Part shown: one piece after another, positions 4,273-21,203 of the stretch | Position numbering within the stretch: position 1 is the stretch's first letter | How the letters are laid out: every line of letters starts with the position of its first letter | Source: a virus | Virus record (IMG/VR): IMGVR_UViG_3300031801_000027 | Location: 1-21,907 of that record | Direction: 5' to 3' (one strand) | Length of the DNA: 21,907 nt | Program-made: the position numbers and the translations under genes | The notes under the pieces: model-generated | Told to the model about the DNA's origin: nothing | The model's database searches: none | The model's input: only the letters and a program-made list of their open reading frames with translations

Positions 4273-5454
4273 ATGTTCTTCCAAACGTTCGACGACAAAC
4301 AAAACTGCTTCATGGTATACAAAGAAGCAAAGTTCCATAAAAATATAACGCCTACCTGTACCCAAACTTGGTCCTACGCTTCTTATCTGCGAGATCAAGA
4401 AGTAGAATATGCATCAATATACGCTCTGGGTGCTTCTATGGAAGAAGTATGCAACGACAAACAAAAAATAGTATATAACGAAACACAGGCAAAAATCAAA
4501 GCAGTCATCAAGTCATGCCATGAAGTAGGACTAGATTTAGACAAAATATGCTTATATGAAGTAATGCCTCGCCATCTATTAACGACTTGGGCAGAAATCA
4601 AGAATAGCATATGCAAAAGCGTATTCGCAAAATACAAAAAACCCGACAACTACGACCAGCTATTAAAAATAAATAAAGTCATAGCAGACGTCAGGCAAAG
4701 ACATCTAAATCTTGACTTATCAAAGATAATCCAACTAACAGTACAAGACAAGAACACATATAAGCTTATTTCAGAAAACAAACCATTTATAGATTATGAT
4801 ATGACTAAAACCGTTACAGGTCGCTTAAGCACTAAAAAGAATTCTTTTCCTGTAATGACAATTGCAAAGAAATATCGTGATATTCTTATTCCAAATAACG
4901 ACTGGTTCTTCGAAATGGACTTCAACGCATGCGAGCTACGAGTAGCCTTAGCTTTACTTGGAGAAGAACAGCCAGAAGAAGATCTCCACGATTGGAACCT
5001 AAAGCATGTCTTTACTAGGGCAAAAGATCGCGATAATGCTAAAAAACGTATATTTGCGTGGCTTTATAACCCTAATAACAAGGATGACAACGTTAGTAAG
5101 ATTTACGACCGGGAAAAACTCAAAACTTTGTATTATAAGCAAAATAAAGTAATTACCCCATTTGGACGAGAAATAGAGTGTGATGAAGATCACGCTGTAA
5201 ACTATCTGGTACAATCAACAGCAGCCGATTTAGTATTTGAGCAAATGTATAAGGTCTGGGAATATTTGCGAGACAAAAAGAGCTTTATTAAATTTTGCAA
5301 TCACGATAGCGTGATGATTGATTTACACACTGAACAAGAATATGAGTTTAATGACATTAAGCAACTATTTAGTAATACTAGATTTGGAAAATTTAAAGTT
5401 AATTCTTTGGGCGGCAAAAACTGGGCTGATATGAAAGCATTACTTATTAAATAA
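4273..5454 (+). CDS. Short family A (Pol I-like) DNA polymerase, palm/fingers only
   Basis: The C-terminal half carries the family A polymerase motifs in order: TGRLST (residues 182-187); motif A as DFNACELR (216-223) with the metal-binding Asp216; a motif B-like RDNAKKRIFAWLY (253-265); the QSTAAD segment (314-319); and motif C as NHDSV (343-347), where most relatives have HDE. It should therefore be a template-directed DNA polymerase. At 393 residues it is far shorter than Pol I (about 930) or T7 polymerase (about 700). I see no 3'-5' exonuclease or 5' nuclease domain, and residues 1-170 are helical and unrecognised. A separate FEN-type nuclease is encoded at 9691. It is the first gene after the promoter at 4206. 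Since a complete DnaE polymerase is also present, this one may serve repair, gap filling or primer replacement (inference). Confidence 0.88.
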   Translation: MFFQTFDDKQNCFMVYKEAKFHKNITPTCTQTWSYASYLRDQEVEYASIYALGASMEEVCNDKQKIVYNETQAKIKAVIKSCHEVGLDLDKICLYEVMPRHLLTTWAEIKNSICKSVFAKYKKPDNYDQLLKINKVIADVRQRHLNLDLSKIIQLTVQDKNTYKLISENKPFIDYDMTKTVTGRLSTKKNSFPVMTIAKKYRDILIPNNDWFFEMDFNACELRVALALLGEEQPEEDLHDWNLKHVFTRAKDRDNAKKRIFAWLYNPNNKDDNVSKIYDREKLKTLYYKQNKVITPFGREIECDEDHAVNYLVQSTAADLVFEQMYKVWEYLRDKKSFIKFCNHDSVMIDLHTEQEYEFNDIKQLFSNTRFGKFKVNSLGGKNWADMKALLIK

Positions 5455-5466
5455 AAGGAACACATT

Positions 5467-5727
5467 ATGAAACTTACAAGAACCTATCTTAAACAGCTTA
5501 TCAAAGAAGAACTGGAAGCACCGACAGGTGATGGTGGCTTAGAAGGCGGCTCTCAGGCTTTAAAAGTAATTGGAGCCTATCTCCCTAAAATCACCAGAAA
5601 AGAAGATTACTTAAGTCTTTTTAAGGCTGTTATGGCAGCTGCTTCGCAAATCGGGGTATCCCCAGCGCCGCAGCTGAAGGCAATGTATCGTGACGGAACT
5701 ATTGTGAACTGGCTCAAAAGCTTATAA
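5467..5727 (+). CDS. Small protein with LTRTYLKQLIKEEL N-terminus, function unknown
   Basis: This 86-residue protein follows the polymerase by 12 bases, and AAAGGA sits just before its ATG. Residues 3-16, LTRTYLKQLIKEEL, form an amphipathic basic/acidic helix. They are followed by a Gly-rich linker (GDGGLEGGS) and a helical domain of about 55 residues. From memory, similar N-terminal segments (x-T-x-x-x-L-K-x-x-I-K-E-E) occur on many small proteins of uncultured marine phages, which would suggest a removable or targeting peptide. I could not verify that here. Its place between the polymerase and the tubulin-like gene suggests early expression, while the N-terminal peptide might suggest packaging in the virion. 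The function is not known. Confidence 0.7.
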   Translation: MKLTRTYLKQLIKEELEAPTGDGGLEGGSQALKVIGAYLPKITRKEDYLSLFKAVMAAASQIGVSPAPQLKAMYRDGTIVNWLKSL

Positions 5728-5753
5728 ACTTATAATATTCCAGAGAGGAAAAT

Positions 5754-6602
5754 ATGCAAACCGTAATAGGTTTAGGTCAAGCAGGATGTAATATTGCTGA
5801 CCAATTCAAACAATACCCACAATATAAAACAATCAAGTTAGATGAAGGATTAAGAAAGACTAAGAGTTCTTTTGGTCTTAAGCGTCAGACATCCCCAGAA
5901 CTGTATGAAAAAAACCTGCCGAGAGGTATAGTAAAATATTTACAAGAGGGGGTGATGTCCGAAACATTATTCATCACCAGTTGTGGTATGGTGTCTGGCG
6001 CTGCTTTATCTATTTTATCAAAAATAAAAGATAATACAAACATTACAGTTATGTATATTATTCCCGAAAGAACAGAACTAGTTGGAGACAAAAAACTCCA
6101 AAACAACTTACTTTTCAACGTGTTCCAAGAGTATGCCCGTTCAGATTTATTTAAAAGAGTTTATTTGCTTGACAATCAATTACTTTCTGATATAATGGGC
6201 CCTGTTCCAATAATGAAACGTTGGGATTCTATGAATACTTTGATTGTTTCTACATACCATATGACAAACGTTTTTGAGCATACACAGCCGGTACTTACTA
6301 CGACTACAAGCCGTATTGATACCGCCCGTGTAAGTACGATTGGATTGCTAGACGCAAAAAAAAATGAAGAAAAAATGTTTTTTTTGCTTGACTTTCCAAG
6401 AGAAAAAAATTATTATTATGGTGTTCCTAAAAAACAATTAGAGACAGATGAGAATCTGATGGAAATTATTCAAAGGAACTTAAAAAGTAATATAGATCAT
6501 GATAAAATGAAAACAACTTATTCGGTATATTCTACGGAATATGATGAACTTTTTGCTTATTGTGAAAAAAGTAGTACTTTATTACAAAAACTAGCGTCTT
6601 GA
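5754..6602 (+). CDS. Divergent FtsZ/tubulin superfamily protein
   Basis: The 282 residues follow the FtsZ layout. VIGLGQAGCNIA (4-15) matches the first nucleotide-binding loop. ITSCGMVSGAALSIL (74-88) sits where FtsZ has its GGGTGTGAAP box. ITVMYIIPERTELVG (97-111) resembles the strand leading to FEG. LLDNQLL (138-144) matches the IDN-x-x-L segment. A long helix from about 157 to 180 is followed by RIDTARV (187-193), where FtsZ has NVDFADV. The glycine box is degenerate, and Arg192 replaces the second loop Asp that FtsZ uses for GTP hydrolysis in the neighbouring subunit, so it may bind without hydrolysing or act as a regulator (inference). It is shorter than PhuZ or TubZ. It lies between a polymerase and SSB in one unit. 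A clear AGAGGAAA precedes the ATG. Confidence 0.72.
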   Translation: MQTVIGLGQAGCNIADQFKQYPQYKTIKLDEGLRKTKSSFGLKRQTSPELYEKNLPRGIVKYLQEGVMSETLFITSCGMVSGAALSILSKIKDNTNITVMYIIPERTELVGDKKLQNNLLFNVFQEYARSDLFKRVYLLDNQLLSDIMGPVPIMKRWDSMNTLIVSTYHMTNVFEHTQPVLTTTTSRIDTARVSTIGLLDAKKNEEKMFFLLDFPREKNYYYGVPKKQLETDENLMEIIQRNLKSNIDHDKMKTTYSVYSTEYDELFAYCEKSSTLLQKLAS

Positions 6603-6655: not shown

Positions 6656-7399
6656 ATGGCTATTGATATGAATAAAATGCGTGCTCGTCAAACAGCACTC
6701 AAGAACAAGGGTGGAGACGGCAACAATCAGTTTTGGCGTCCTCAAGAGGGAGAGCAGACAATCCGTATTGTAACTCCCGCTGATGGAGACCCTTTCCGTG
6801 ATTTCTGGTTCCACTATGAAGTGGGCGATGAAAAGGGCTTTCTTTCGCCCAAGCGTAACTTTGGGGAGGATTGTCCTCTTGATAGTTATGTGCGAGCGCT
6901 TTGGAAGGATGGTTCTGAAGAATCTAAGCGTATGGCTCGTAAGCTTGGCGCACGTCAGCGTTTTTTCGCAGCGGTAGTTGTACGCGGTGAAGAAAGCGAG
7001 GGTGTAAAGGTTTGGGGCTTCGGTAAACGTGCCTATGAGACCCTTCTCGGTTTGGTGCTCAATCCAGAATATGGAGATGTCACCGACCCAGTAAATGGTA
7101 CTGATTTGGTAGTTACCTATAGCAAACCCGCTGGAGCTTCTTTTCCAGAAACCAAGATTACGCCTCGTCGTAAGTCTTCACCGCTTCATAAAGACAGCGA
7201 GAAGACAACAGCGCTTTTGGAAAGCGTACCTGATTTTGATGAGGTATTTACCGCATCACGTCGCACTGGAGAAGAGGTACAAGATATTCTTGACCGCTTC
7301 TTGCAATCTAGTGAGGCAGAAGGTACGGATAGCGCAGAGGTTACTAATATCTCTGGCGCTTCCAAAGTTGACAAGGCTTTTTCCGAGCTTCTAGGTTAA
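6656..7399 (+). CDS. Single-stranded DNA-binding protein (gp32-like)
   Basis: The 247-residue protein has a basic N-terminus (MNKMRARQTALKNK). An OB-fold-like region begins FWRPQEGEQTIRIV (25-38) and continues through DFWFHYEV. A charged, Ser/Glu/Asp-rich tail ends in KAFSELLG. The same order of basic arm, OB core and acidic tail is seen in T4 gp32 and relatives, which coat single-stranded DNA during replication and recombination. There is one clear Cys and no full zinc motif like the one in T4 gp32. It is the last gene of the unit and is followed at once by a terminator. All 18 Arg codons are CGN (14 CGT, 3 CGC, 1 CGA), unlike neighbouring genes that also use AGA/AGG, which suggests selection for high expression. 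The repeat in its leader may be a control site. Confidence 0.8.
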   Translation: MAIDMNKMRARQTALKNKGGDGNNQFWRPQEGEQTIRIVTPADGDPFRDFWFHYEVGDEKGFLSPKRNFGEDCPLDSYVRALWKDGSEESKRMARKLGARQRFFAAVVVRGEESEGVKVWGFGKRAYETLLGLVLNPEYGDVTDPVNGTDLVVTYSKPAGASFPETKITPRRKSSPLHKDSEKTTALLESVPDFDEVFTASRRTGEEVQDILDRFLQSSEAEGTDSAEVTNISGASKVDKAFSELLG

Positions 7400-8071: not shown

Positions 8072-9190
8072 ATGGCAAAGAAAAAAGAAAAGGCTGGTCG
8101 TCTATCAATCGACCAAATGCGAAAGCTTATCAACAAGAAAGCAGGGCAAGAAGTATCTATCGATCTCACAGACGATAATAACCCCACAATCGTAAAGCAA
8201 TGGATTCCAACTGGTTCACGCTGGCTGGATGGTATTGTATGTCGTGGGAAAATGGGTGGCATCCCTGTTGGCAAAGTATCAGAGATTGCCGGTCTGGAAG
8301 CCAGCGGCAAATCCTATATGGCTGCTCAAATCGCGGGTAATGCCCAACGAATGGGGATTGACGTTGTTTACTTCGATTCAGAATCAGCGTTAGACAACAA
8401 GTTTGTAGAGAGATCTGGATGCGACCCGAAGAAGCTGCTCTATATCCCAGCAACATCAGTTGAATTCGTCTTAGAATCAATCGAAGAACTCCTAAAATCA
8501 AACGATAATCAAATGTTGTTCATTTGGGACAGCTTGGCGCTCACACCCGCTATTTCAGATATCGAAGGCGACTTCAACCCACAATCCTCTATGGCTGTAA
8601 AAGCGCGTATTCTTGCGAAGGGTATGTCCAAACTTACTATTCCACTGGCATCAAGCCAATCTACATTTTTGGTATTAAACCAACTGAAAACGAATATTAC
8701 TCGTTCCCCTTCAGAAGTGATGACCACGCCATATGTAACCCCCGGCGGTAAAGCTATGATTTATGCATATTCATTGCGTATCTGGCTCACCCGTCCCAAA
8801 GCAAAAGCATCTTTTGTTACAGACGACAAAGGCTATAGAATAGGTAATACAGTAAAAGTAAAGATTGAGAAGTCACGCTTTGGTTCTCAAGGACGTCAAT
8901 GTCAATTTAAGATTTTATGGGGCGATACTGTAGGTGTTGCCGATGAAGACAGCTGGTTTGACGCTATTCAAAGTTCAGAACACATCAAACAATCAGGCGC
9001 CTGGTATGAGCTAGTTTTTGCAGATGGCACTTCCGAAAAGTTTCAGTCAGCGCATTGGGCTAAAAAGCTTCAAGACAAAAAGTTCAAAACACGAGTTTTA
9101 GAAATTATGGATGAAGAGATTGTAACGAAGTTCGACGCAAGGACTGGTAATGCTGACGGTTTCTATGATGACGAAGAAAATACAGCATAA
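8072..9190 (+). CDS. recA: RecA/UvsX-type recombinase
   Basis: The 372-residue protein has the RecA ATPase core: Walker A as GLEASGKS (74-81), a Walker B strand MLFIWDS with Asp153, and the RecA-like run DSLALTP followed by IEGD. NQLK (203-206) matches the sensor strand, and TPGGKAMIYAYSLRI (223-237) matches the T-x-GG-A-L-K-F-Y-A segment. It should bind single-stranded DNA with ATP and carry out strand exchange in recombination-dependent replication or repair, working with the phage SSB. The IEG element and overall length (E. coli RecA is 353) place it nearer to bacterial RecA than to T4 UvsX. The C-terminus is acidic (DDEENTA). AAGGAAA precedes the ATG. Confidence 0.92.
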   Translation: MAKKKEKAGRLSIDQMRKLINKKAGQEVSIDLTDDNNPTIVKQWIPTGSRWLDGIVCRGKMGGIPVGKVSEIAGLEASGKSYMAAQIAGNAQRMGIDVVYFDSESALDNKFVERSGCDPKKLLYIPATSVEFVLESIEELLKSNDNQMLFIWDSLALTPAISDIEGDFNPQSSMAVKARILAKGMSKLTIPLASSQSTFLVLNQLKTNITRSPSEVMTTPYVTPGGKAMIYAYSLRIWLTRPKAKASFVTDDKGYRIGNTVKVKIEKSRFGSQGRQCQFKILWGDTVGVADEDSWFDAIQSSEHIKQSGAWYELVFADGTSEKFQSAHWAKKLQDKKFKTRVLEIMDEEIVTKFDARTGNADGFYDDEENTA

Positions 9191-16896: not shown

Positions 16897-17800
16897 CGAA
16901 CTAGTCACAAACAAACAGCAGTTTAACCTAGCAGGTATTATCCCAGTAGCGGGACAGCCATTAGATTACAACTTCCCTTGGCACGATTCACTCGCTCCAA
17001 TTGGACAGAACTACCTAGCAGTCGAGAAAGCAGTATTTGATTGTGCTGTGGCTGGCTGTGATACAATATGGCTTGTGTGCCCCAAGGATATGCAGCCTCT
17101 TATTCGTTACAGATTGGGCGATTATATTTTAGACCCAATAAAGTTCTTTACCGGGTACCACTTTGGAAGTCGACCCAAAAGATCAGAAATCCCAATATAC
17201 TATTGTCCCATCGAGCCAAAGGACACAGATAGAAGAGATTGCCTATCGTGGAGCATTATAACTGGTGCTCAATACGCTTATCGCCTCGCTCGTCAAATCG
17301 GCAGATGGGTGACACCAGATAGATACTTTGTTTCTTTTCCATATGGTATGTACACTCCTTTCTATATGAAGGACAAAAGAGCCAAAATACGTGACAAAGA
17401 CCCATTCTATCTTACATACGAGGGCAAAAGCTTTAAAGATGGTTTATATCTTCCATTTACATTTGCCCCTCAAGATTTCCTAGATTGCAGAAGAAAGTTT
17501 AGGAAAAGCGAGCGAAGAGGACGAGACGCGGAAGGTAATGTATATTCAGCCGCAGAACGATATTCTGGACGCTACTTTACACACGATTTTGTTTTCAGCG
17601 AAGTAAACACAGAAAACGCCCAAGTACTTGATATTCCTTGGTATTATGACATATCCAGCTGGGCTGGACTAAAAACTTGGCTGGCAAGTGAACATAAGCT
17701 TGACAAACCAAAAGGAATTATATTATCATATAACGAATGGAATCCTTTAGGAATTGACCCAACAATAGAGGAAGAGGAACTTGATGAACAAGAAGAGTAG
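16886..17800 (+). CDS. Nucleotidyltransferase-like (GT-A fold) protein
   Basis: The first 65 of 304 residues look like the start of a sugar-phosphate nucleotidyltransferase: AGIIPVAGQ (16-24) replaces the usual GGxGTRL loop, LAPIGQNYLAVEKAVFD (36-52) parallels the M-LPI-x-K-P-x-x-x-x-x-I region, and AGCDTIWLVCP (56-66) parallels AGI-x-x-I-x-x-V. The remainder is rich in aromatic and Arg residues and ends in an acidic tail (EEEELDEQEE). The consensus NTP-binding Gly/Arg motif is altered, so activity is uncertain. Its frame overlaps both the upstream orphan and the DnaE start (17784), suggesting translational coupling. It could activate a sugar or modify a nucleotide; a purely structural or replisome-associated role is not excluded. 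Confidence 0.55.
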   Translation: MEVNELVTNKQQFNLAGIIPVAGQPLDYNFPWHDSLAPIGQNYLAVEKAVFDCAVAGCDTIWLVCPKDMQPLIRYRLGDYILDPIKFFTGYHFGSRPKRSEIPIYYCPIEPKDTDRRDCLSWSIITGAQYAYRLARQIGRWVTPDRYFVSFPYGMYTPFYMKDKRAKIRDKDPFYLTYEGKSFKDGLYLPFTFAPQDFLDCRRKFRKSERRGRDAEGNVYSAAERYSGRYFTHDFVFSEVNTENAQVLDIPWYYDISSWAGLKTWLASEHKLDKPKGIILSYNEWNPLGIDPTIEEEELDEQEE

Positions 17801-20800
17801 TATACCCTTTGTAGGGCTACACGCCCACAGCGGCATAGGCAGTCCCTTTGATGGACTTGGATATCCTAGCGAGCATATGGACTTTGCTTTCGAAAACGGC
17901 AATGATGCCCTTGCACTAACAGACCACGGTAATATGAATGGATTTGCTTACCAAGTCCAACACGCCCAAAAAATGATGGAGGATGGCAAAGATTTTAAGC
18001 CCATTTTCGGCGTAGAAGCTTATTTCCTACCTAGCGTAGAAGACTGGCGAGTACAGCTAGAAAAAGCAAAAGCAGACAAGAAAGCCAAAAGAAGCATTGA
18101 TAAAACCAAGTCAGGTACAACAATCGAAGACGAAGGCAATAAACGAGAAGTAAAGAACATTCTTAACCGACGTCGCCATCTTATTCTTTTAGCTCAAAAT
18201 CAAACAGGGTTAACTAATATTTTTAGTATGGTTTCTAAATCATACAGCCCAGATTATTTCTATCGGTTTCCGCGTATGGACTACGCAATGCTCAACGAAC
18301 ACAATGAAGGAGTAATTGCCGCCAGCGCTTGTCTTGGTGGCATATATGCTGGAAACTATTGGGAAAATATCGAGAAGGGTGAAGACGCTGTATTAGAAGT
18401 AATGCGCGATACAACCGAAAGAATGCTTGATATTTTCGGTGATCGTTGGTATGGCGAACTCCAATGGAATAACATCGAGGAACAACATGAATTAAACAAG
18501 CTAATCGTCAAAGTATGTAATGAATATGATGTAGAACTTATCTCTACAGCTGACAGCCATTATCCCAACAGAGATGCCTGGAAAGACCGAGAACTCTACA
18601 AGCGTTTGGGTTGGCTTAGTAGAGGTACTCCTAAATGGGCAACCAACACAGAACTCCCCGCTGGCGTCGAAGAAATCGGCTATGAGCTATTTCCAAAGAA
18701 CGGAGATCAGATGTGGGAGGCATATGAAAACTATACACAAGAAGGCGACTATGATGATACGCTAGTACGCGAAAGTATCGAACGCACGCATCACATCGCT
18801 CACAATCGTATTGAACGCTTTATGCCTGATAATAAAGTTCGCCTACCGGGATTTGTTATTCCCGCTGGTCAAACACCAGACGGAGCATTAGTAGCTATTA
18901 GCATCGATGGGCTTCGTGGACTTGGACTACAAAACAATACAGAATATGTCGACCGTCTCAAAGAAGAGCTTAACATTATCAGCGAACGAGGATTTAGCAA
19001 ATATTTCCTTACAATGAAAGCAGTCGTCGACAAGGCGACTACTATACAGCTTACAGGTGCAGGACGTGGTTCAGCCGCAGGTTCGCTTGTGTCATATGTT
19101 TTAGGTATCACGCAAGTCGACCCAATCAAATACAATCTATTGTTCTCTCGTTTTATGACGAAGGACTCAAAAGACTACCCCGATATTGATTACGATGTAT
19201 CTAGCCCGATGGAACTCAAAGAAATGTTGATTGAGGACTGGGGAGGCAACACTGTTGTCCCCATCTCGAACTTTAACAAGTTACAGTTGCGTTCTCTAAT
19301 CAAAGACATCGCAAAGCTCTATGAAATTCCTTTTGTAGAGGCGAACTCTGTAACTTCTAAAATGATTGCAGAGGCAACACCGATTGCTAAAAAGATGCGC
19401 GGTATCAAAGCTGGTGTCTATGCTCCAACCTTTGAAGAGGTAATGGAATATTCAGACAGTTTAAAAAACTTCTTACGTAAGTATCCTAAAATCAAAACGC
19501 ACGTAGAAGCATTAGTCGGTGAAGTTCGCTCTGTATCCAGACACGCTGGTGGAGTGGTTATTGGCGAAGACCTAGACAAGTATATGCCTCTTATTAATAG
19601 CGGTGGCGTCACTCAAACTCCATGGAGCGAAGGGCAACACGTAAGACAGCTAGAGCCAATGGGCTTTATCAAATTTGATATTCTTGGACTATCAACTCTA
19701 AAAATGATTGAGGGTGCAGTTACTCATATCCTTCGGCGTCATCATGGAGTAGAGAACCCAACCTTCGAAGAAGTAAAAGCTTATTATAACGAGTACTTAC
19801 ACCCAGACAAGATAAACCTAAACGATAAGAAAGTTTATAAAAACATCTTCCAGAAAGGCAAATGGGCTGGCATCTTCCAGTTTACAGAAAAGGGAGCACA
19901 AAACTTTTGCAAGAGAGTACAACCAAAGAATATTATTGATGTCGCATCTGTTACATCTATTTATCGTCCCGGTCCATTATCAGCTAATGTACACGAAACA
20001 TTTATGGAAGCAAAAGAAAACCCAAGAGGTATTCGCTACGGACACGATATTGTAAAGGAATACACAAAAGAAACTTATGGTTTCCTTATCTTCCAAGAAC
20101 AAATCGCTTTGCTGGCACACAAGCTTGGTAAAGACTTTAGTTTGGACGAAGGAAACAAACTTCGCAAGCTGCTTACAAAGAAAGGTACAGGAGCAGTAGC
20201 TAAACAGAAAGCTGCTCTCAAACTTAAGTTTGTTGCAGGCTGCATAGAAAAGGGGTTGACCGAAGAGTGGGCAGATAAGATGTGGCAAAAGTTTGAATTC
20301 TTTTCTGGCTACGGTTTTAATAAATCACACGCAGTTTCATATTCTATTATATCTTTTCAGTGCGCGTGGCTATATAATTATTATCCCGCAGAGTGGATGG
20401 CGGCATTTCTGGACAAAGAGCCAGAGAGTAGAAAAGAAAAAGCAATCAACATAGCAAAGAAGCGTGGCTTCAAGCTTAGCCCAGTCAATATTAATAAATC
20501 CATGGCTGACTGGACGATAGATAAAGATGGTAAAACTCTAATCCAACCATTAACCTCTATCAAGGGATTAGGAGAAAAAGCAATTGAACAAATCATCGAA
20601 CACAGACCTTTTAACACTATTGAAGAACTTCTCTTTAGCAAAGAGATTATCTATTCTAAGCTTAATAAGAAAGCAATCAACGTCCTCATCAAAGCCGAAG
20701 CGCTAAACGATTTGATGGACGATAGGTTCAACAACCTAAAACACTTTTGGACGGTTGTAGCCGATAACAGACCGAAATCACTAAAGAAACTAAATGAGCT

Positions 20801-21203
20801 AGCGGAAGAATATAAAGATATCGAGGACTTTACACGAGATGAATACATCGAAGCTAAAGTAGATATTACAGGCATATTCCCATTTCAGTTGATCATGTCT
20901 GAAGATATTCTCCAAAGATTAGATTATTATAAAGTACCAACCATATCAGAGTGGGACCACGAGCTTGGAGTAGCATGGTTTATTCCTCGCGAAGTAATCA
21001 AACGCAAAACAGCAAAGGGTCGACCTTACTATGTTATCAAGACAATTGATAAGAACTCGGCAATGACAGATATTCGCTGCTGGGGAGTAAGACCCGGCAA
21101 AGATAAAATCTTTGTAAATCGCCCTTACATGGCAAAACTTAAGTTTGAAGAACAATGGGGTTTTTCCACAAGAGGAATCCACGAGTGGAAACTATTAGGA
21201 TAA
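17784..21203 (+). CDS. dnaE: DNA polymerase III alpha subunit (DnaE type)
   Basis: I chose the ATG at 17784; a TTG just before it is in frame, but the GAGG at 17774-17777 suits the ATG better. The 1139 residues, near E. coli DnaE's 1160, begin with a PHP domain whose metal ligands look present: His13/His15, Asp47/His48, Glu78, Cys183, Asp257/His259. The C-family palm follows: GRGSAAGS (427-434), PDIDYD (Asp467 and Asp469), and KFDILGL (Asp632). SRHAGG, YRPGPL, FQEQIALLAHKLG and GYGFNKSHA appear in the usual order, then a helix-hairpin-helix (IKGLGEKA, about 925) and an OB-like end. There is little room for the usual tau-binding tail. This is probably the phage's main replicative polymerase. 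Confidence 0.95.
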   Translation: MNKKSSIPFVGLHAHSGIGSPFDGLGYPSEHMDFAFENGNDALALTDHGNMNGFAYQVQHAQKMMEDGKDFKPIFGVEAYFLPSVEDWRVQLEKAKADKKAKRSIDKTKSGTTIEDEGNKREVKNILNRRRHLILLAQNQTGLTNIFSMVSKSYSPDYFYRFPRMDYAMLNEHNEGVIAASACLGGIYAGNYWENIEKGEDAVLEVMRDTTERMLDIFGDRWYGELQWNNIEEQHELNKLIVKVCNEYDVELISTADSHYPNRDAWKDRELYKRLGWLSRGTPKWATNTELPAGVEEIGYELFPKNGDQMWEAYENYTQEGDYDDTLVRESIERTHHIAHNRIERFMPDNKVRLPGFVIPAGQTPDGALVAISIDGLRGLGLQNNTEYVDRLKEELNIISERGFSKYFLTMKAVVDKATTIQLTGAGRGSAAGSLVSYVLGITQVDPIKYNLLFSRFMTKDSKDYPDIDYDVSSPMELKEMLIEDWGGNTVVPISNFNKLQLRSLIKDIAKLYEIPFVEANSVTSKMIAEATPIAKKMRGIKAGVYAPTFEEVMEYSDSLKNFLRKYPKIKTHVEALVGEVRSVSRHAGGVVIGEDLDKYMPLINSGGVTQTPWSEGQHVRQLEPMGFIKFDILGLSTLKMIEGAVTHILRRHHGVENPTFEEVKAYYNEYLHPDKINLNDKKVYKNIFQKGKWAGIFQFTEKGAQNFCKRVQPKNIIDVASVTSIYRPGPLSANVHETFMEAKENPRGIRYGHDIVKEYTKETYGFLIFQEQIALLAHKLGKDFSLDEGNKLRKLLTKKGTGAVAKQKAALKLKFVAGCIEKGLTEEWADKMWQKFEFFSGYGFNKSHAVSYSIISFQCAWLYNYYPAEWMAAFLDKEPESRKEKAINIAKKRGFKLSPVNINKSMADWTIDKDGKTLIQPLTSIKGLGEKAIEQIIEHRPFNTIEELLFSKEIIYSKLNKKAINVLIKAEALNDLMDDRFNNLKHFWTVVADNRPKSLKKLNELAEEYKDIEDFTRDEYIEAKVDITGIFPFQLIMSEDILQRLDYYKVPTISEWDHELGVAWFIPREVIKRKTAKGRPYYVIKTIDKNSAMTDIRCWGVRPGKDKIFVNRPYMAKLKFEEQWGFSTRGIHEWKLLG

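Follow-up and report, generated by a model that had tools for sequence, protein, structure and literature searches.

The window, by which we mean the whole 21,907-nucleotide stretch of viral DNA analyzed here, carries on its plus strand a tubulin-like gene placed among replication genes. A small family-A DNA polymerase of 393 amino acids (polA; positions 4273 to 5454; Pfam DNA_pol_A, E 1.7e-13, and synteny) is followed by an open reading frame of 86 amino acids with no Pfam match (5467 to 5727), by the tubulin-like gene (5754 to 6602) and by a gp32-like single-stranded DNA-binding protein (SSB; 6656 to 7399; Pfam gp32, E 1.5e-14), all four being co-directional. A UvsX/RecA-like recombinase lies farther downstream on the same strand (8072 to 9190; Pfam RecA, E 1.3e-34, and synteny). 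The tubulin-like gene begins with ATG, 3' of a ribosome-binding-site-like GAGAGGA (5743 to 5749), and encodes 282 amino acids; its assignment draws on the open reading frame call, an AlphaFold2 model, structural matches obtained with Foldseek and VIA-align, and dN/dS values.

Besides the 393-residue family-A polymerase, the window encodes a full DNA polymerase III alpha subunit of the PHP type (17781 to 21203), the two being an unusual combination of replicases. The 86-amino acid open reading frame is not conserved, a match being found at a single locus (L001) among the first 80. It starts with MKLTRTYLKQLIKEELE, a similar KITREQLKEKI stretch is found at the end of a protein of Microcystis phage Mel-JY01, and this start might be a targeting motif.

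A tubulin fold in a family of uncultured phages

The sequence-only reading of this locus had described a divergent tubulin/FtsZ protein with FtsZ landmarks in the right order. The reading frame and every motif that it quoted were recovered exactly: GLGQAGCNIA at residues 6 to 15, SCGMVSGAALSIL at 76 to 88, LLDNQLL at 138 to 144 and RIDTARV at 187 to 193, with the long helix appearing in the model at 153 to 175. Judged by its sequence only, the protein is a weak candidate for a tubulin. The Pfam Tubulin profile matches only 24 N-terminal residues, at E 0.019 and under the curated cut-off; the best score among 62 relatives is E 0.0014, and no convincing match was obtained from PHROGs, NCBIfam or PDB sequences. 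Hits to SirA, A-100 and an oxidoreductase among the PDB sequences were set aside as chance matches. Once the predicted fold is counted, the assignment goes far beyond chance.

The AlphaFold2 model, built from a 62-sequence alignment, has a pLDDT of 93.8 and a pTM of 0.91. FtsZ leads the Foldseek comparison with the PDB (E from 7e-13, about 1e-12; TM about 0.7). With VIA-align the model matches CetZ at Z 24.5 (261 residues, rmsd 3.1), TubZ at Z 23.7 (275 residues, rmsd 3.0, 17% identity), FtsZ at Z 23.3 (270 residues, rmsd 3.6) and tubulins at Z about 22, so that Z spans about 22 to 24.5 over 257 to 277 residues among the matches listed. The model confirms a tubulin/FtsZ fold with an N-terminal Rossmann-like GTPase domain, the core helix H7 and a C-terminal activation-type domain, and the protein was rightly taken for a divergent homolog of this superfamily.

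Named after the FtsZ topology and delimited by DSSP of the model, the N-terminal elements are S1 (residues 2 to 7), H1 (8 to 20), S2 (24 to 31), S3 (39 to 42), H3 (57 to 66) and S4 (70 to 75), followed by loop T4 (76 to 83), H4 (79 to 91), S5 (96 to 103), H5 (112 to 129), S6 (135 to 140) and T6/H6 (141 to 148). The core helix H7 (153 to 175; positions 6210 to 6278) leads through a loop of 17 residues into a reduced activation domain (193 to 274; positions 6330 to 6575) composed of S7 (193 to 200), S8 (215 to 225), H10 (about 235 to 245), S9 (253 to 261) and S10 (267 to 274). FtsZ helices H8 and H9 have no counterpart in the model, from which the C-terminal helix H11, linker and tail are also absent, the chain stopping eight residues past the last strand.

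A scan of IMG/VR returned 107 relatives, and later scans with divergent members returned more. The resulting family comprises at least 134 uncultured viral loci, confirmed by HMM, which are represented by 79 sequences of less than 90% identity; members share about 31 to 92% identity with the window protein. No cultured-phage relative was found in INPHARED by tblastn with three divergent members, and a scan of GTDB genomes found no cellular relative. FtsZ matches in supposed phages look like bacterial contamination and were used solely as FtsZ references. The dN/dS values of 0.05 to 0.22 in nine pairs show strong purifying selection on the gene, and the reading frame is open in eight of nine large records, with one TAA flagged in contig G009. 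The longest family contigs measure 186 to 204 kb, and a T4-type gp23 capsid protein is encoded by all four that were tested. The gene is apparently core to a clade of uncultured marine T4-like myoviruses; the cyanophage marker psbA was not found in ten contigs. A second, alpha/beta-style tubulin partner was not found with Pfam Tubulin in four large contigs or with the family profile in nine, a search whose reach is limited by fragments and remote homology.

Nucleotide-binding side, catalytic loop and conserved surface

The phosphate loop T1 (GLGQAGCN, residues 6 to 13; positions 5769 to 5792) is the sole part matched by Pfam Tubulin, and its residues G6, G8, G11 and C12 are nearly invariant in the 79 representatives. 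The T3-region motif PELYE (residues 48 to 52; 5895 to 5909) is paired by hhalign with PEVG of FtsZ and has conserved E49, Y51 and E52. In T6 and the start of H6 (LDNQLL, residues 139 to 144; 6168 to 6185), N141 on the guanine side is present in 79 of 79, as is N161 of H7. Four residues ahead of N161, position 157 (W157 in the window) is aromatic in 68 of 79, a spacing that we take to be the register of tubulin Tyr224 and Asn228. The hhalign alignment to FtsZ, at a modest P of 0.0034, places LDNQLL opposite IPNDKLL and N161 opposite the AAND motif. It is likely, because of the conservation of T1, the T3 region, N141, N161 and the aromatic residue 157 together with the hhalign pairing, that the window protein binds guanine nucleotide.

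Loop T4 does not have the signature GGGTG(S/T)G. The window has SCGMVSGA at residues 76 to 83 (5979 to 6002), and its relatives mostly have the degenerate form GG[SG]Gx[IV]S. In a midpoint-rooted tree, a branch with support 100/93 divides all members with the short T4 from the others, most of which have GG[SG]Gx[IV]S; of the two forms, it is the long one that is similar to FtsZ and tubulin. The Gly-rich box had been described as worn down, correctly, yet the tree shows that this wear is derived and belongs to the clade of the window.

The remodeled T7 region (residues 176 to 192; 6279 to 6329) contains neither NxDxxD nor H8. The altered catalytic loop noticed in the window is a family trait, as NxDxxD occurs in none of the 79 representatives. 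No acid is conserved in residues 176 to 191, where the maximum is 33 of 79, at position 189. A profile search for relatives combined with inspection of residues 76 to 84, 189 and 192, as had been suggested from the window, found T4 worn in the window's clade, position 189 variable (15 D, 18 E, 21 N) and position 192 always basic (77 R, 2 K). Arg192 had been placed where FtsZ has its second catalytic Asp; the arginine is indeed there and is kept, but this is no simple D-to-R exchange within an intact T7, since the model has a 17-residue loop between H7 and S7 without H8 or H9. The alternative that hhalign offers, with T7 at residues 170 to 176, was rejected, as in the model this segment falls within or at the end of H7. 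In Staphylococcus aureus FtsZ the T7 aspartates D210 and D213 promote hydrolysis in the adjoining subunit (PMC8936486). With NxDxxD in 0 of 79 and no conserved acid at 176 to 191, canonical GTP hydrolysis is very unlikely across the whole family.

The same residues bear on whether the protein could form a dynamic cytoskeleton of the PhuZ or TubZ kind, with GTP hydrolyzed by a non-canonical residue such as R192 acting in trans. All 79 representatives have Arg or Lys at position 192, where the T7-equivalent loop ends, and the fold is the same as that of TubZ and PhuZ. We nevertheless regard such a cytoskeleton as quite improbable, given that no catalytic acid is conserved at 176 to 191, that H8 and a C-terminal H11 or tail are missing, and that T1 and T4 have decayed in some members.

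The loss of T7 does not preclude filaments, because an FtsZ whose T7 is truncated and non-catalytic still crystallizes as GTP filaments (PMC8936486). The longitudinal contact of protofilaments is made by T7, the base of H8 and S9 (PMC3678025), and because two of these contacts are remodeled or missing, the protein is possibly monomeric or otherwise assembled.

One lineage has dispensed with T1. In the four loci concerned (L299, 1500 to 2324; L300, 6001 to 6825; L301, 220 to 1044; L302, 6001 to 6825), VALTRPA is found where other members have GLGxAGC. Its representatives retain 8 of 14 conserved nucleotide-loop residues and 29 of 32 conserved residues elsewhere. The model of the L299 protein is a tubulin fold (pLDDT 93.4; VIA-align Z 24.1 to CetZ), and the gene occupies the same position as at other family loci. 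Since the fold, position and other residues are kept, the function shared by the family is not strictly dependent on T1, and nucleotide binding is probably not essential in every member. Beyond N141 and N161, the residues invariant in the 79 representatives are Y24, Q125, Y127, R129, S130, M170 and Q278, and H169 and N172 of H7 are nearly so. To judge by its retention in the lineage that has lost T1, the non-nucleotide surface (YPQY 21 to 24, QEYARS 125 to 130, HMxN 169 to 172, R192 and Q278) must be important.

A monomeric adaptor of tubulin fold would accommodate these observations. Such a pseudo-GTPase would never polymerize and would use the conserved non-nucleotide surface to bind a replisome protein, be it polA, SSB or another, which agrees with the loss of the canonical interface elements T7 and H8, with the presence of non-nucleotide positions among the tightest-kept residues even without T1, and with a gene that always adjoins SSB and polA. 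It is an unlikely explanation, although one to be taken seriously: the nucleotide side is strongly conserved in nearly all members, which would be needless in a pure docking protein, and no partner is known.

Promoter-like sites inside the coding region

The order polA, tubulin, SSB, recA is kept at family loci long enough to reveal it, and in loci retrieved through SSB the tubulin gene is immediately upstream in all 74 with sufficient upstream DNA. At seven loci (L008, L009, L011, L016, L030, L039 and L042) polA and the tubulin gene are separated by as much as about 1 kb of additional DNA, which suggests that this gap is a recurrent insertion point.

The tubulin coding sequence itself contains sigma-70 promoter-like sites on the plus strand. 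The first, TTGACA-16-TATAAT with a TGn extension, is a 12/12 match at codons 139 to 148 (6169 to 6196); 43 loci have an 11/12 or 12/12 site there, and in 40 of these it is 12/12. The second, TTGACT-17-TATTAT, is a 10/12 match at codons 212 to 221 (6388 to 6416); in 80 of 126 family genes this register is occupied by an 11/12 site, for example TTGACA-17-TATTAT. A third site, at codon 31, is found in one clade. Sites of at least 11/12 are present in 59 of the 79 representatives, against a mean of 12.7 (maximum 22) after synonymous-codon shuffling, and 12/12 sites in 29, against 1.7 (maximum 6), a comparison that overstates the count of independent events because the sequences are related to one another. 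At codon 212, 71 of 79 genes use CTT, and of the 68 genes that encode Asp at codon 213, 67 use GAC. Sites of this kind are far rarer in the neighboring genes, occurring in 0 of 73 SSB, 6 of 68 polA and 7 of 57 recA genes. The comparison with shuffled genes does show that these putative promoters are retained beyond the requirement of the protein sequence, and the conservation of L212, D213, Y220 and Y221 may be partly at the DNA level. They are probably promoters of SSB, because that gene starts downstream, at 6656.

It follows that adjacency of tubulin and SSB is in itself no proof of a link at the protein level, and the constant place beside SSB, considered as proof of a functional link, was dropped once the embedded sites had been found. 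The sequence-only reading had also proposed that the gene is transcribed with replication genes. Co-direction from polA through the 86-amino acid frame and tubulin to SSB, and a position conserved in every testable locus, bear out one half of this proposal; against the other half, SSB is probably served by sigma-70 promoters of its own within the tubulin gene.

If the embedded sites were the main reason for the gene's persistence, it would be a carrier of SSB promoters whose protein has no important function. The excess of near-perfect sites (59 of 79 against 12.7 expected), absent from SSB genes and few in polA, speaks for such a role. This is highly improbable in view of dN/dS of 0.05 to 0.22 across the gene, numerous invariant residues away from the promoter codons and a frame open in eight of nine large records.

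Known tubulins, a proposed function and related phages

The window protein shares with FtsZ and CetZ the overall fold, the GxG loop of T1, a PE-like T3, the DN/ND motif of T6 and H7. It differs in having 11 to 15% identity to them and in lacking the GGGTGTG T4, the NxDxxD T7 and, in the model, H8 and H9. The C-terminal linker of FtsZ and its conserved peptide for membrane tethers have no equivalent in the window, and relatives have only short variable tails; the window gene, moreover, stands in a phage replication cluster. One FtsZ-like face opposite an altered catalytic face could suit a protein that antagonizes host FtsZ by mimicry: its intact nucleotide face would cap host FtsZ or co-assemble with it, and for want of a working T7 face filament growth and division would stop. 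Such an antagonist is improbable: the gene is core and syntenic in a very diverse clade rather than a small accessory early gene, residues outside the nucleotide face are conserved as well, and the sequence bears very little resemblance to that of FtsZ (hhalign P 0.0034).

PhuZ and TubZ, the best-studied phage tubulins, are dynamic GTPases. PhuZ of the phiKZ-like jumbo phages is likewise phage-encoded and of tubulin fold, and the L299 model matches Noxifer PhuZ in BFVD at E 2.2e-7; an hhalign match to phiKZ PhuZ (P 0.07), confined to the C-terminal part, is likely chance. PhuZ did not figure among the top matches listed for the window model, which has no bearing in either direction. The defining feature of PhuZ is a C-terminal helix H11 with an acidic tail, which stabilizes the filament (PMC3678025). 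The window protein possesses neither this element nor a catalytic T7 and so is unlike PhuZ in what defines PhuZ; its family belongs to T4-like phages with gp23 capsids, where the gene lies beside polA and SSB. TubZ of Bacillus plasmids has the same fold (Z 23.7, 17% identity over 275 residues) and differs by its C-terminal helix and tail and by T7 catalysis. The best viral fold matches, A0A6J5RW92 (TMq 0.79) and A0A8S5UFG9 (TMq 0.63), are FtsZ-like proteins of uncultured Caudovirales; with 387 to 452 amino acids and 9 to 13% identity to the window protein, they are apparently separate phage tubulin families. By the defining features of each, the window protein is not PhuZ, TubZ or FtsZ. Because it has the fold, fails the T4 and T7 signatures and lacks the C-terminal elements of all three, it fits best as a new family inside the tubulin/FtsZ superfamily, one that is altered catalytically.

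The explanation that we prefer, at a probability of about 0.45, is that a GTP-binding, hydrolysis-deficient tubulin serves phage replication as a static assembly or as a nucleotide-gated scaffold or adaptor. The protein would be made from a polA-tubulin transcript, the SSB-recA block downstream probably being fed also by the sigma-70 promoters within the tubulin coding sequence. It would bind GTP or GDP without hydrolyzing GTP by the canonical route through a T7 aspartate in trans, and a static, non-treadmilling head-to-tail assembly, or a nucleotide-gated scaffold or adaptor, would organize the replication machinery. Both assembly and the role in replication are inferred. Counting against this explanation, the link to replication rests on gene position, and the embedded promoters may be what holds the adjacency to SSB. 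Among the functions that had been guessed for the window protein, a non-hydrolyzing scaffold seems the most likely and a scaffold for the replication site is plausible, while inhibition of host FtsZ is least favored because the gene is near-universal in a diverse phage clade.

A bolder form of the preferred explanation, tentative and on the whole doubtful, is that these proteins are a new phage cytoskeletal family, in which a hydrolysis-dead tubulin forms nucleotide-locked static filaments or rings that organize the replication site in marine T4-like phages, the gene doubling as a conserved set of SSB promoters. If so, the tubulin fold would serve phages without dynamics driven by nucleotide, and phage cytoskeletons would extend past the jumbo nucleus-forming phages. 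From a GG[SG]G T4 to a worn T4 and a lost T1, the family offers a natural series in which to ask what purpose the fold serves where GTP turnover can be spared, and promoters inside the tubulin gene would make a clear, directly testable case of dual coding.

By capsid, ribonucleotide reductase (RNR) and RecA, the closest cultured phage is Mel-JY01, which has the SSB-recA-exonuclease-helicase-RNR block in common with the window phages but no tubulin gene at that place. Immediately upstream of its SSB, in the slot of the window's tubulin gene, Mel-JY01 encodes a predicted S-adenosylmethionine lyase domain (L104, 5714 to 7000; Pfam E 4e-10). In sister phages other open reading frames, often of about 700 and 135 amino acids, separate polA from SSB, and no tubulin was detected by HMM. 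Upstream of SSB, sister phages have a conserved protein of 140 amino acids with HRKKQSNTLYTINALNELV or a close variant (L265, 6624 to 7046; L231, 5306 to 5728).
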